Assembly (NCBI GenBank): GCA_002726945.1
Contig: PBTB01000015.1
Span: forward strand, 1 to 34,694
DNA length: 34,694 nt
Direction of reading: 5' to 3'
Source: Deltaproteobacteria bacterium
GTDB taxonomy: Bacteria > SAR324 > NAC60-12
The translations under genes were made by a program, and so were the position numbers. The notes under the pieces are model-generated. The model did no database searches, was not told the origin of the DNA, and saw only the letters and a list, made by a program, of their open reading frames with translations. The first letter of the stretch is position 1; each line of letters begins with the position of its first letter. Of the stretch, positions 29,256-34,694 are shown one piece after another.

Positions 29256-29856
29256 GTCAGCGGCCCAAGCCCAAGGCTTCCGGAACATCGCCGGAGTCGA
29301 TGAGGCTGGGCGTGGCCCGCTCGCTGGTCCGGTGGTGGTCGCTGCCGTGATCTTAGGCCCGGATTGGGACACAAGCCACCCGCTCCAGGATTCCAAACGG
29401 ATTCCGGAAGACGAGCGCGAGCGGCTGTTTCCGATCATCCGCAAGCAGGCGCAGGCGCATCGCATTATCGCCGTCTCGCCCAAGGCGATTGACGAGTCGA
29501 ACATCCTGCGGGCCACGCTGGACGGCATGTCGCGCTCACTCCGGGAGTTGCATACTCCGGCGGACTACGCCTTGGTGGACGGCAATCGTTTTCCGACGAT
29601 GGGGCTTCCGGGAGAAGCGGTGGTGAAGGGGGATTCGCACTCATGCAGCATTGCCGCTGCGTCGATTTTGGCGAAGGTCGCACGGGATCGCATCATGCGG
29701 GTGTACGGACAACGCTATCCGGAATGGGGCTTTGAGCAGCATTTCGGCTACCCGACGCCGAAACACCGCGAGGCGATTCAGCGGCACGGACTCAGCCCGA
29801 TCCACCGCCGCACGTTTCGGTGGAAGCCGCGTCCGGCGCAACTGGATTTACTGTGA
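29194..29856 (+). CDS. rnhB: Ribonuclease HII
   Basis: A 220-residue RNase HII that nicks RNA-DNA hybrids and single ribonucleotides embedded in DNA. The active-site block is [19 protein letters not shown], with LVDGNRFP and the later [21 protein letters not shown]. The four acidic metal ligands are therefore accounted for. The only good start is the ATG at 29194, preceded by GGGAG; it lies inside rplS, giving a 62-bp out-of-frame overlap. Residues before [11 protein letters not shown] are therefore encoded by the rplS end. The TGA overlaps the yraN start (GTGA). Confidence 0.96.
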
Positions 29857-30209
29857 CAAAGGCCCGGCAGAGTCTCGGCGCCTCCGGAGAGCAGGCTGCC
29901 GGCGAACACCTCGTCCAGCAGGGCTTGATCGTGCTGGAGCGGAACTTTCGTTGTCGGCTGGGAGAAATTGACATCATCGCACGGGACGGTGAGCATCTCG
30001 TCTTCTGCGAAGTGAAAACGCGCCGTGAGGGTGGGCTGCATCCGTTCCTGTCCGTCACGCAGCGCAAACAGCGCAAGCTGCGCCAGTTGGGGTTGTACTA
30101 CCTCAGCAGGCATCGTCTGGAACACCTGCAAACGCGTTTTGACGTGATTGCAGTGTATCAGGCACAGGACGGGACGTTCGCCATTGAACACCTGCCCAAC
30201 GCCTTTTGA
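29853..30209 (+). CDS. yraN: YraN/UPF0102 family endonuclease-like protein
   Basis: A 118-residue protein of the UPF0102 family, with a restriction-endonuclease-like fold. The core signature is seen: GEQAAGEHLVQQGLIVLERN, then GEIDIIARDGEHLVFCEVKT, in which E-x-D and E-V-K are the putative PD-(D/E)xK catalytic residues. The GTG at 29853 overlaps the rnhB stop by 4 bp and gives the family's N-terminus; another GTG at 29820 is less likely. The gene nearly always follows rnhB in bacteria with this operon. Cellular role is not settled. Confidence 0.92.
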   Translation: MTKARQSLGASGEQAAGEHLVQQGLIVLERNFRCRLGEIDIIARDGEHLVFCEVKTRREGGLHPFLSVTQRKQRKLRQLGLYYLSRHRLEHLQTRFDVIAVYQAQDGTFAIEHLPNAF

Positions 30210-30260
30210 ACGCCGCTCTGGAAATCCGGGGGGCTCCTCAACCCCAAACGCCTGAACACA

Positions 30261-30545
30261 ATGGCACACCACAAGTCTGCGAAAAAGCGCATCCGCCAGA
30301 CCATCAAGCGCACGGCCCGCAACCGCTCCCTGCGCTCCAGCATGAGAACCGCGATCAAGCAGTACCGCACACTGCTGGAGCAGGGCGATGCGGGAGTTGC
30401 CACGGAAGCCTTTCCCAAGATACAAAAGACCATCGACAAGATGGTGACCAAGGGCATCCTGCACCGCAACACCGCCGCCCGTTACAAGTCCCGGCTCTCG
30501 CAAGCACTGGCGGAACCCAGCGCTCCTGCTGCCGCAACGGCCTGA
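30261..30545 (+). CDS. rpsT: 30S ribosomal protein S20
   Basis: A 94-residue S20, a helical protein that binds 16S rRNA. The N-terminus MAHHKSAKKRIRQTIKRTAR is typical, and KMVTKGILHRNTAARYKSRL matches the C-terminal half. It comes 51 bp after yraN. rpsT is usually found elsewhere in proteobacteria, so this attachment to the ffh-yraN operon is a local arrangement. Confidence 0.96.
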   Translation: MAHHKSAKKRIRQTIKRTARNRSLRSSMRTAIKQYRTLLEQGDAGVATEAFPKIQKTIDKMVTKGILHRNTAARYKSRLSQALAEPSAPAAATA

Positions 30546-30580
30546 GTCTGGAGTATCCGGAGTTGAAAACAAGATTCGGA

Positions 30581-30609
30581 TTGACCTTCTCCAAGCGTTT
30601 TACTAATGT
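30581..30609 (+). promoter_or_regulatory. Possible promoter for sdhC
   Basis: TTGACC at 30581-30586 matches the -35 consensus at five of six bases, but the element 17 bp downstream (TAATGT) is a weak -10. It lies 50 bp before the sdhC start, in the only gap between rpsT and the sdh genes. Confidence 0.3.
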
Positions 30610-30657
30610 TTGGACGGGTGATCAACCCGATCTTATTTGACTCTGAAGGCATACTTG

Positions 30658-31296
30658 ATGGACTCGTCTTTTCTTCACCGCAGGGTTCACAGCATCACCG
30701 GCATCGTTCCGGTTGGGCTTTTCCTCGTTTACCATCTCTATCTCCAGCTCTACCTGCATTCCGGAGCATCGGAGTACAACGAGCGCGTCAACAGCTTCTA
30801 CGACAGCCCGCTCGCGGTCTGGATCCTCATCCTGCTCGTTTACCTCCCGCTGCTCTACCACTCTGTACTGGGCCTGCGTCTGAGTGCGGAGGCCAACGTG
30901 CAACCACAGTATCAGTACTTTGCCCATGCGCTTTACTGGCTTCAGCGTGTCAGCGGCGTGGGGGTGTTTCTCTTCATGCTCGGGCATCTCTGGAACGCCA
31001 AGCTCGTTCCTGCATTGGGGGAAGGAAGTCTCTGCCTCACTGAGTGTGCTAACCAGCACTACGAACATCTGGTTGCTGGCTTTGGTGATCCGGAAACCGG
31101 ACTGGTCACCCAGGCGGTGTACGTCCTTGGAGTGTTCGGTGCGACCTTTCACCTCGCCAACGGCATCAACACCTTTTGCATGACGTGGGGCATCGCCCTC
31201 ACCCCCAAGGGGCAGTTTCGGGTGCGCATCTTCAGCATGCTCGTGTTCCTCCTGCTCACGGCTAGTACCTTCTATGCGCTCAGCGCCCTTTGGTAG
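30658..31296 (+). CDS. sdhC: Succinate dehydrogenase/fumarate reductase cytochrome b subunit (type B)
   Basis: A 212-residue membrane anchor with about five transmembrane helices. It is a single large cytochrome b subunit, as in the type B enzymes of Bacillus, epsilonproteobacteria and many deltaproteobacteria, rather than the two-subunit SdhC/SdhD anchor. Candidate haem-ligand histidines lie in RRVHSITG, LVYHLYL, LLYHSVLG, FMLGHLWN and ATFHLANGINTF. It receives electrons from SdhB and reduces quinone. The ATG at 30658 is eight bases after AAGG; an in-frame TTG at 30637 is possible. Normally sdhA would follow directly; here an extra small gene is inserted. Confidence 0.92.
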   Translation: MDSSFLHRRVHSITGIVPVGLFLVYHLYLQLYLHSGASEYNERVNSFYDSPLAVWILILLVYLPLLYHSVLGLRLSAEANVQPQYQYFAHALYWLQRVSGVGVFLFMLGHLWNAKLVPALGEGSLCLTECANQHYEHLVAGFGDPETGLVTQAVYVLGVFGATFHLANGINTFCMTWGIALTPKGQFRVRIFSMLVFLLLTASTFYALSALW

Positions 31297-31373
31297 TCTG
31301 GAAGAGCAAATTAGTGGTTGCTATTGATTTGAGTGTCGCATGAAAAATGGGCGACCAAGAGGAGGTATCAAGA

Positions 31374-31598
31374 ATGTCGAGTTGCAACTTAAATCAGTTT
31401 GGAGTGAGGCTTGAAATCAAGCTTGATGAGTTCAAGACCAAAATCATCAAATGGGTTGCCGGACTGTTGCTTGTGCAATCTGGTTTGGTGATTGTGGCGC
31501 TGTTTGCGATGTTTTGCATGTTCCTTACCGGGAGCGTAAATTGGGACTCGCACAAAAACGCAAGGGTTATACTGGAGTTGAGAGCGAACGGATCATAG
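31374..31598 (+). CDS. Small membrane-anchored coiled-coil protein (DUF1640/CCDC90-like tail)
   Basis: A 74-residue protein with a strong Shine-Dalgarno (GGAGGT) eight bases before the ATG at 31374. A short amphipathic helix (VRLEIKLDEFKTKIIKWV) runs into one hydrophobic transmembrane helix (GLLLVQSGLVIVALFAMFCM), then a short polar tail. A coiled coil followed by IKWV-x-GLL-x-Q is the pattern of the C-terminal end of DUF1640 (MCUR1/CCDC90-type) proteins, so this may be a shortened member. Base composition is AT-rich compared with both neighbours. It lies between sdhC and sdhA, 10 bp before sdhA. Either it is a recent insertion or a small accessory to complex II. Confidence 0.6.
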   Translation: MSSCNLNQFGVRLEIKLDEFKTKIIKWVAGLLLVQSGLVIVALFAMFCMFLTGSVNWDSHKNARVILELRANGS

Positions 31599-31608
31599 GA
31601 GTGAAAAA

Positions 31609-33573
31609 ATGAGCAAGCAACGAGTGATTATGATCGGCGGAGGGCTGGCCGGGCTGGCCGCAACCATGAAGATTGCGGAACAGGGCACCCCGGTGTTGCT
31701 GGTGTCCTTTCTGCCCGTCAAGCGCTCCCACTCGGTGTGTGCGCAGGGCGGCATCAACGGCGCGGTCAACATCAAGGGCGAGGGCGATTCTCCGGACATC
31801 CACTTCTACGACACCGTGAAGGGTGGTGATTTCTTGGGCAACCAACCGTTGTGCAAGGACATGTGCTATCACGCACCCTTCATTATCTACCTGCTGGATC
31901 GCCTCGGAGTGCCTTTCAACCGCACGGTAGAAGGCAATCTCGATTTCCGTCGCTTCGGCGGCACCTTGCATCACCGTACCGCCTTTTCCGGGGCAACCAC
32001 CGGGCAGCAGTTGCTCTATGCACTAGACGAGCAGGTGCGGCGGTACGAGGTTTCCGGAATGGTGGAAAAGCAGGAGTGGCACGAATACCTCGGTGCCGTC
32101 CTCAATGACGAGGGACGTTGCGTGGGGGCCGTCATCCAGAACCTGCGTACGGGAGAAATCCGGTCGGAGCGCGGCGATGCGGTGGTTCTCGCAACCGGAG
32201 GTCCGGGAGTGGTGTACGGGCGTTCCACCAACTCGGTGGTCTGCACCGGAACTGCCACGACCTCGGCCTACCTGCAAGGAGCCAAGTACGGCAACGGCGA
32301 ATTCATCCAAATCCACCCCTCCGCAATTCCGGGTCGCGACAAACTGCGGCTGATGAGCGAATCCGCCCGTGGCGAAGGCGGGCGTGTCTGGGTGCCACGA
32401 CAAGCTGGAGACAACCGCCCCGCCCGACAGATTCCGGAGGACGAGCGCTATTACTTTCTTGAGGAACGCTACCCGCTCTTTGGCAACCTTGTCCCTCGTG
32501 ATGTGGGCGCCCGAGAAATCTACGACATCTGCGTCAACGAAGGACTCGGTGTCCACGGCGACCTCAAGGTGTACCTCGACCTCACGCACCACTCCCGTGA
32601 ATTTCTTGACCGCCGACTGGGCGGCATCCTCGAAATCTACGAGAAGTTCACCGGAGTCGATCCGAGAGAGGAACCGATGGAGATTTTCCCGGCGGTCCAC
32701 TACTCGATGGGGGGGATCTGGACAGGCTTTGAGCGCACTGTCGAGGGTTTCATCAACCACCTTTCGCCCCGCAACCAGATGACCTCCATCCCCGGACTCT
32801 ACGCCGCCGGGGAGGCCGATTACCAGTACCACGGCGCGAATCGGCTGGGGGCGAACTCGCTGCTGAGTTGTATCTACACCGGGTTGATGATGGGGCCGGG
32901 AGTCGTCAACCACCTCCGGAATCTTCCGGAATCCGCTGAGGATTTACCGCAGAGCGTGTTTGATCAGGCCGTTCGTCAGTGGCAGGAGCGTGTCTCCGGA
33001 ATCCGGAAGATGAGGGGCAATGAGAATCCTTACGCCCTGCATGCTGAACTCGCCAACGAGATGATCTCCAACGTCCTCATTGTCCGGGAGAACAGCAAAC
33101 TGACCTCGACCCTCGAATCCATCGAGGCCATAGAGCAACGCTGGCACAAGGTGAGTTGCGTGGATACCAAAGACTGGACGAATCCGGTGCCGAGCTTCAT
33201 CAACCAACTCTGGAACATGATCCAGCTTTCCAAAGTGATCACCAAGGGGGCACTGCTTCGCGACGAGTTTCGGGGGGCGCACTACAAGCCGGAGTTTGAT
33301 CTCAAGCAGCCGGGCGACTTTAAGCCGGAGAACTACTTGGAGTACGAGGACATGAAGGCCAATGGCGGGGTGAAGGAGGGTTATTTTGCTCCGGAGCACC
33401 TCAGCTACATGGAGCGCTTCGAGGCGAACAACAAGCAGTGGCTCAAGTCCACAATTGCCACCTACCAGTCCAGCGGCGCGGATGGAGGGTACTACTCCAG
33501 CGGAGGGCCGGAAATCACTTACGAACCGGTGGATGCCTCTCTGATTGCCGCGCGTCCCCGCAAGTACGATTGA
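31609..33573 (+). CDS. sdhA: Succinate dehydrogenase/fumarate reductase flavoprotein subunit
   Basis: A 654-residue FAD subunit that oxidises succinate to fumarate (or the reverse). The FAD-binding N-terminus is VIMIGGGLAGLAATMKIAEQ. The covalent FAD attachment site is His41 in HSVCAQGGINGA. The block QIHPSAIPGRDKL and the capping/catalytic part VHYSMGGIWTGFE, with GLYAAGEADYQYHGANRLGA, are complete. AGGAG precedes the ATG. The length and the long C-terminal helical domain fit type B/E-like SdhA. It forms the enzyme with sdhC upstream and sdhB 38 bp downstream. Confidence 0.97.
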   Translation: MSKQRVIMIGGGLAGLAATMKIAEQGTPVLLVSFLPVKRSHSVCAQGGINGAVNIKGEGDSPDIHFYDTVKGGDFLGNQPLCKDMCYHAPFIIYLLDRLGVPFNRTVEGNLDFRRFGGTLHHRTAFSGATTGQQLLYALDEQVRRYEVSGMVEKQEWHEYLGAVLNDEGRCVGAVIQNLRTGEIRSERGDAVVLATGGPGVVYGRSTNSVVCTGTATTSAYLQGAKYGNGEFIQIHPSAIPGRDKLRLMSESARGEGGRVWVPRQAGDNRPARQIPEDERYYFLEERYPLFGNLVPRDVGAREIYDICVNEGLGVHGDLKVYLDLTHHSREFLDRRLGGILEIYEKFTGVDPREEPMEIFPAVHYSMGGIWTGFERTVEGFINHLSPRNQMTSIPGLYAAGEADYQYHGANRLGANSLLSCIYTGLMMGPGVVNHLRNLPESAEDLPQSVFDQAVRQWQERVSGIRKMRGNENPYALHAELANEMISNVLIVRENSKLTSTLESIEAIEQRWHKVSCVDTKDWTNPVPSFINQLWNMIQLSKVITKGALLRDEFRGAHYKPEFDLKQPGDFKPENYLEYEDMKANGGVKEGYFAPEHLSYMERFEANNKQWLKSTIATYQSSGADGGYYSSGGPEITYEPVDASLIAARPRKYD

Positions 33574-33611
33574 CGCTCGACTGCTAACTCTCGCTAAACT
33601 TCAGGAGGTTC

Positions 33612-34358
33612 ATGGACACCATCAGCTTTAGGATCAAGCGACAGGACACCCCGGAGGGAGGTCCGTACTGGGAGGAGTTCGTGATCCCGTACCAGAAGAA
33701 CTCGAATGTCATCTCCTGCTTGATGGACATCCAGAAGAATCCGGTGAACGCCAAGGGCCGGGAGGTGGCTCCGGTGGTGTGGGAGTCGAACTGCCTGGAG
33801 GAGGTTTGCGGCACCTGCACGATGCGTGTCAACGGACAGGTGCGGCAGGCGTGCAGCGCTCTCATCGACCGGCTGGAGCAGCCCATCGTTGTCGAACCAA
33901 TGAGCAAGTTCCCGGTGGTCCGGGATTTGATCGTGGACCGCACCCGAATGTTTGACGCGCTCAAGCAGGTGCAGGCGTGGGTTCCGGTGGATGGTTACTA
34001 CGACCTTGGCCCAGGCGAGCGCATCTCCCCGAACCACCAGCAGATCGCCTACAAGCTCTCGGAGTGCATGACCTGCGGATGTTGCGTGGAAGCCTGCCCG
34101 CAGTATGCAAAGGACGGGGATTTTCTGGGACCAGCCGCAGTCAGTCAGGTTCGGCTCTTCAACATGCACCCGACCGGGAAAAACATCGCCGAGGAGCGCA
34201 TTGACGTCCTCACGCAAAAGGGCGGTATCACCAGTTGCGGCAACGCCCAGAACTGCGTGGAGGTCTGCCCCAAGGGCATCCCGCTCACGGAATCCATCGC
34301 GGAAATGGGACGCCAAGTCTCCCAGCGCTTCTGGAAAACGCTCTTCCGCGCCGCCTGA
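33612..34358 (+). CDS. sdhB: Succinate dehydrogenase/fumarate reductase iron-sulfur subunit
   Basis: A 248-residue iron-sulfur subunit that passes electrons from FAD to the cytochrome b anchor. The plant-type [2Fe-2S] ligands are in SNCLEEVCGTC and RQAC. The two later clusters use CMTCGCCVEACP and CGNAQNCVEVCPKGIP, with NMHPTGK between them. AGGAGG lies five bases before the ATG. It is the last gene of the sdh set; downstream sequence becomes AT-rich. Confidence 0.97.
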   Translation: MDTISFRIKRQDTPEGGPYWEEFVIPYQKNSNVISCLMDIQKNPVNAKGREVAPVVWESNCLEEVCGTCTMRVNGQVRQACSALIDRLEQPIVVEPMSKFPVVRDLIVDRTRMFDALKQVQAWVPVDGYYDLGPGERISPNHQQIAYKLSECMTCGCCVEACPQYAKDGDFLGPAAVSQVRLFNMHPTGKNIAEERIDVLTQKGGITSCGNAQNCVEVCPKGIPLTESIAEMGRQVSQRFWKTLFRAA

Positions 34359-34599
34359 TTTCTTTCTGCCGGGCCTCCTTCCTGAAGGCTTTTCTCTTCC
34401 CAGCCCGAAATACCTTTTCCGAACCGACTCCTCACGGGGGCAAGCCCAACATCAGGCGGCTTGCCTGCTCTGCTCTAAAGGAGTATACTGTCAAATGGTG
34501 CATCCAAGAACAATTGCTCTGGAAATACGCACAAATATTGCATCAGAAAAAGTACGGCTGAGGTCAATTTGCGTTTGAGCAAAAAATATTGGGGATTTT
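34359..34599. other. Region downstream of sdhB, no supported gene
   Basis: Composition drops from GC-rich to AT-rich at about 34470. An inverted pair GGCAAGC/GCTTGCC (34439-34445 and 34459-34465, 13-base loop) could be the transcript-end stem but lacks a T-run. Open frames here are continuations antisense or out of frame from sdhB. Confidence 0.4.
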
Positions 34600-34694
34600 A
34601 TGAAACAAGTGATTTTTATAGTAAAATCCATTAAAAATGGTACACTTTCAATTCCCTGGGCGAAGCCGGGTGGAGCTTTGGTCCGTCTGACTTC
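34600..34694 (+). CDS. Possible start of a gene running off the window
   Basis: An ATG at 34600 with GGGGA five bases upstream opens a frame of 31 codons to the window end. The peptide begins MKQVIFIVKSIKNG and continues to LSIPWAKPGG. It is in AT-rich DNA like the left module. No family is recognisable and it could be chance. Confidence 0.3.
   Translation, partial: MKQVIFIVKSIKNGTLSIPWAKPGGALVRLT

Follow-up and report, generated by a model that had tools for sequence, protein, structure and literature searches.

A CCDC90-like fragment between sdhC and sdhA in a SAR324 genome, probably the relic of an insertion

In DUF1640 or CCDC90-like proteins (PF07798), an A-T-K motif marks the start of the stalk, according to the available part of a published description (PMC4786415). 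The small open reading frame (ORF) described here, located between sdhC and sdhA of a SAR324 bacterium, aligns with the membrane anchor of these proteins and the adjoining end of their coiled-coil stalk, but it has no FDT-type head, no A-T-K and no Pfam match, and it carries an extra ~25 residues after the anchor. A second comparison is mycobacterial SdhF, which, in the accessible sections of its source, is a protein of ~3 kDa occurring mainly in mycobacteria (PMC7447783). Like SdhF, the ORF product is predicted to form a single membrane helix, and the ORF is encoded beside sdhC; however, SdhF is a subunit of complex II, whereas an association of the ORF product with complex II is hypothetical. 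A phmmer search of PDB chains with the ORF returned none at E 10, the chain being very short and that of SdhF not necessarily among those searched. The SdhC/SdhD anchor subunits are similar in that the ORF too is a predicted membrane helix encoded within the sdh operon, but the ORF has no Sdh_cyt match and the operon already possesses a one-gene anchor of the b558 type. In the portions available of the literature on CCDC90/DUF1640, SdhF, SAR324 succinate dehydrogenase and small accessory subunits (including PMC4786415, PMC7519068, and PMC7447783), we recognised no description of such an ORF.

The sdh locus and the signals of the ORF

The stretch analysed (the window) is 34,694 nucleotides long and is contig 25 of a draft genome of 2.6 Mb in 156 contigs, with 89.5% completeness and 4.98% contamination. 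Its gene order, which we take to be rimM-trmD-rplS-rnhB-yraN-rpsT-sdhC-[ORF]-sdhA-sdhB, uses names that upstream of sdhC are assumed from the appearance of the proteins. Between the sdhC stop at 31296 and the sdhA ATG at 31609 lies a gap of 312 bp (31297-31608), whose features are collected with those of the sdh genes in Table 1. SdhC matches the model sdhC_b558_fam at 5.6e-25 with 88.2 bits, below the model cut-off of 96, and is 57-65% identical to the SdhC of SAR324 relatives, in alignments that mostly begin at residue 8, equivalent to 30658. SdhA shares 77-82% identity with 18 full-length SAR324 relatives, and the nearest SdhA proteins among the named genomes, mostly from SAR324 cluster MAGs, are 78-80% identical, which places the genome in the SAR324 phylum. 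The junction leaves both genes intact, since SdhC aligns to its last residue with most relatives and SdhA from its first. Downstream of sdhB, the sequence up to the contig end (34359-34694) has a lower G+C content (0.46) and no recognised gene.

Table 1. Features of the sdh locus, in positions of the window
Feature	Position	Strand	Remarks
sdhC, type-B cytochrome b subunit	30637..31296	+	likely start ATG 30658; Sdh_cyt PF01127 5.1e-14
Leader of the extra stretch	31297..31373	+	AGGAGG 31360-31365; chance-level hairpin 31335-31355 inside
74-aa ORF	31374..31598	+	stalk end ~6-26 and membrane anchor ~27-52 of a CCDC90-like protein, ~22 residues after
TAGGAG	31596..31601	+	ORF stop overlaps sdhA ribosome-binding site; from sequence
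sdhA, flavoprotein subunit, intact	31609..33573	+	NF006392 3.4e-277
sdhB, iron-sulfur subunit, intact	33612..34358	+	NF006391 3e-126

A preliminary description of this DNA had reported a 74-residue frame with a strong ribosome binding site, and both are borne out. The ORF encodes 74 amino acids (31374-31598 including the stop), or 83 from an alternative in-frame ATG at 31347, and AGGAGG sits 8 bases 5′ of its ATG, a pattern (AGGAGG-n4-11-ATG) with 4 occurrences on the + strand of the window. Its stop codon TAG (31596-31598) falls within the TAGGAG that precedes sdhA. When the 312-bp gap was shuffled, a + strand ORF of at least 74 aa appeared in 42 of 3000 cases. The same description had called the stretch AT-rich, which holds against the genes (G+C of 0.44 in the gap vs. 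0.56 in the window) but not against some nearby intergenic DNA, with 0.44 at 30546-30636 and 0.46 after sdhB.

By codon position, the G+C content of the ORF is 0.43/0.33/0.60, which is coding-like. With eight neighbouring frames as its training set, a codon score gave -0.13 for the ORF, against 0.18 to 0.29 for those frames, and -0.28 for the ORF extension, similar to non-coding DNA. With codon usage taken from 26 long frames of the window, of 747 gene segments 74 codons long, 95 score no higher than the ORF, so that the ORF is not unusual and its low eight-frame score is not robust; these 26 frames were taken blindly and may include non-genes, such as 29778-30572 on the - strand. AlphaFold2, run on the single sequence, predicts one helix over residues 4-72 (pLDDT 79.5, pTM 0.40), a model that fits the anchor reading, yet is non-discriminating.

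Homology to the stalk end and anchor of CCDC90-like proteins

Three home-made profiles were built from CCDC90-like relatives, with 4, 22, and 21 rows and the ORF in none of them, and they score the ORF at 33.1, 25.4, and 32.8 bits, compared with 13.2, 15.3, and 20.3 bits for the best shuffles. Each profile was run against 2000+2000 shuffles, of which 1923+1984, 1962+2000, and 1697+1937 were scored and the remainder gave no score. The tail profile aligns residues 7-43 at 32.8 bits, and not one of its 3634 scoring shuffles (4000 made) reaches that value. Taken together, the profile match spans residues ~6-47 of the ORF, corresponding to the final turns of the stalk's coiled coil together with the membrane anchor. 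In the six-row alignment A1, in which the ORF is one row, the anchor has an invariant K-W and an invariant Q. The anchor of the ORF is followed by ~22-25 unrelated residues; the relatives stop within a few residues of theirs.

The family model PF07798 itself does not match the ORF even at E 10. Its cut-off is strict for bacterial members, because relatives in L127, L040, and L003 likewise fall below it. The FDT-type head (FDT...L..AGF...QAE) matches none of the gap's frames, and the A-T-K motif is absent in alignment A1, where the start of the ORF occupies the aligned position. Hence, one feature of the family, a stalk end followed by a membrane anchor, is present in the ORF and three fail, for which reason we call it a fragment homologous to CCDC90-like proteins and not a member. 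The DUF1640-like tail of the preliminary description is thereby retained for the stalk end and anchor (25-33 bits), but not for the head, A-T-K or a Pfam match; by the profile scores, this limited resemblance is real.

Close relatives of the ORF were not detected in 52 genomes of the SAR324 phylum; a protein search turned up only weak similarities in five of the others, at E values of 0.002 to 0.07, and those in G010 and G006 fall in CCDC90-like small proteins. A protein on a viral contig (L127) is 47% identical to the ORF over 43 residues, and a plasmid match, weak at E 0.3 and 39.5% identity over 43 residues, is annotated as CCDC90 family and adjoins phage-type genes; tblastn of the ORF against a phage collection found no match, and a phage origin was rejected, the viral-contig and plasmid matches being insufficient. 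Pfam, NCBIfam, and PHROG offer no convincing family, as Ycf70 (15.2 bits, cut-off 25), the DASS symporter of NCBIfam (17.2 bits, cut-off 198.6) and phrog_17872 (E 0.006) are all sub-threshold.

Junctions in relatives and scattered CCDC90-like genes

Synteny was compared across 39 genomes: besides the window's own, these comprise 23 from its family, all of other genera, and 15 that are more distantly related. An SdhA-like match is present in 38 of the 39. We counted a junction as measurable if SdhA had a complete start and SdhC lay upstream on the same contig, which left out five same-family genomes because of contig breaks (G013, G015), no match (G016) or distant SdhA-like proteins only (G002, G004). 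In all 18 measurable same-family junctions the gap between sdhC and sdhA is 13-69 bp and the ORF is absent, confirming that the 312 bp hold an extra stretch inside the sdh operon, as had been proposed. Among 80 sdhA loci of named genomes, some of which overlap the synteny sample, the gap could be measured in 77 and ranges from -1 to 225 bp, counted to the closest open frame of at least 140 codons on the upstream side, not each a confirmed SdhC; the two widest gaps (225 and 167 bp) contain no frame similar to the ORF. Furthermore, the tail profile searched in six frames against 113 SdhA loci matches the window's own locus only. The preliminary description had suggested synteny in related genomes as a check, and conservation of the ORF beside sdh is not seen in these 18 junctions and 113 loci, none of the junctions being from the same genus. 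From the junction surveys and the tail-profile search, the extra stretch is thus peculiar to this genome within all the DNA compared. In one relative (G001:C332, L026 / L036) the sdhA match is split between residues 1-285 and residues 267-654, either because the gene is broken or because the assembly is wrong there.

CCDC90-like genes occur elsewhere in this genome and phylum. Profile A1 found a second copy in the same genome (G000:C6:8968-9171, - strand; L003 / L162), in which head and stalk share one frame and the anchor end lies in another, so that it is broken or affected by an assembly error. A further headless short copy is found in G014. At E 0.001, PF07798 matches 11 of the 52 phylum genomes, 7 of them above its cut-off, and profile A1 gave 40 matches in 11 of the 52, with none detected in most others. 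Some SAR324 genomes have many copies (L163-L190), with 10 matches in G025 and 9 in G006. By a rough neighbour rule applied to 30 places, the copies are scattered, with varied neighbours and on either strand, and the CCDC90-like small genes of SAR324 are not tied to sdh.

Origin of the ORF

We consider it probable that the ORF is a lineage-specific relic of a CCDC90-like insertion between sdhC and sdhA, most likely with no function in complex II. A relic is to be preferred over a new part of the enzyme because relatives have no ORF at the sdhC-sdhA junction, and we infer an insertion here rather than a loss in all relatives. The preliminary description had left the choice between a subunit and a remnant; the remnant fits better, because the stretch is found in this genome only, its head is missing, a second broken copy exists and the scattered relatives are unlinked to sdh, and the subunit is backed by location and expression signals only. 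The observation is confirmed, and its most likely explanation is an ordinary one: as a relic, it would be an ordinary case in which a small gene of scattered occurrence ended up between two operon genes and decayed there.

Such a history would begin with the C-terminal part of a CCDC90-like gene entering the sdhC-sdhA gap in this SAR324 lineage, with harm to neither sdh gene. The remnant would consist of the stalk end and the anchor, the head having been lost, and its frame would extend through extra sequence to the sdhA ribosome-binding site; the insertion may have been fixed in one lineage because this site was retained or re-formed. The ORF would be transcribed along with sdh and possibly translated to a single-helix membrane peptide. 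Co-transcription is probable because distances are short and a consensus scan found no promoter-like or terminator-like site in the gap, and translation may occur, as AGGAGG is present. Marks of insertion were also sought: no target-site duplication or insertion ends were recognised around the extra stretch, and the missing duplication counts against an insertion. In a search for other copies in the genome, the stretch matches only itself and, at chance level, 22 bases (E 4.9), so a duplicate elsewhere was rejected.

Several observations count against a relic. The frame of the ORF has no interruption, its ribosome-binding site is close to perfect and its end coincides precisely with the sdhA signal, like that of a working operon gene; its G+C by codon position is coding-like, and its codon usage is not unusual by the 26-frame measure. 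The intact frame, the AGGAGG, the stop overlapping the sdhA site and the coding-like G+C, together with one fairly confident predicted helix, would suit a working single-helix membrane protein derived from a CCDC90-like anchor, carried as a passenger of the sdh operon and serving a separate function unconnected with complex II. We regard this as unlikely, since the ORF lacks both the family head and the A-T-K motif, every other measurable same-family junction is without the ORF and none of the 52 phylum genomes has a close match.

Less probable still is an SdhF-like role in complex II as a new accessory subunit, the single membrane helix of the ORF product packing against SdhC. The position of the ORF between sdhC and sdhA and the one helix predicted across its hydrophobic stretch would accord with it, and SdhF, in the part of its description available, offers a precedent, being a subunit with a single helix (PMC7447783). 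However, SdhC, SdhA, and SdhB are complete without the ORF product, relatives with 77-82% SdhA identity do without the ORF, its CCDC90-like relatives are unlinked to sdh, and it matches no solved chain by phmmer at E 10, a weak test for a short chain. In its most specific form, a headless CCDC90-like anchor, taken up into the sdh operon in a single SAR324 genus, would have become a translationally coupled single-helix subunit of complex II and an independent counterpart of SdhF, to which we give slightly less credence again. If the ORF were kept and used, the anchor of an unrelated small-protein family would have been recruited into a core respiratory operon, possibly illustrating a route toward accessory subunits such as SdhF.

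Least probable of all, and very hard to accept, is that the gap is regulatory or spacer DNA with an accidental ORF. In its favour, its G+C equals that of some other intergenic DNA and shuffling can yield a 74-aa ORF, but the CCDC90-like tail profile scores it far above shuffles, a search of 30000-34694 against Rfam gave no match and the gap has no promoter-like or terminator-like site. The 5-bp hairpin noted in the preliminary description (GTCGC...GCGAC) does exist, but it is ordinary and at chance level, at least one such pattern occurring in 47 of 100 shuffled windows, and fold z-scores for its region are -0.67 and -0.09. A frame change in the upstream part of the ORF was rejected, the profile scores of gap frame 1 being about zero; that frame encodes a coil-like peptide adjoining a 17-base repeat whose imperfect copies are 49 bases apart.
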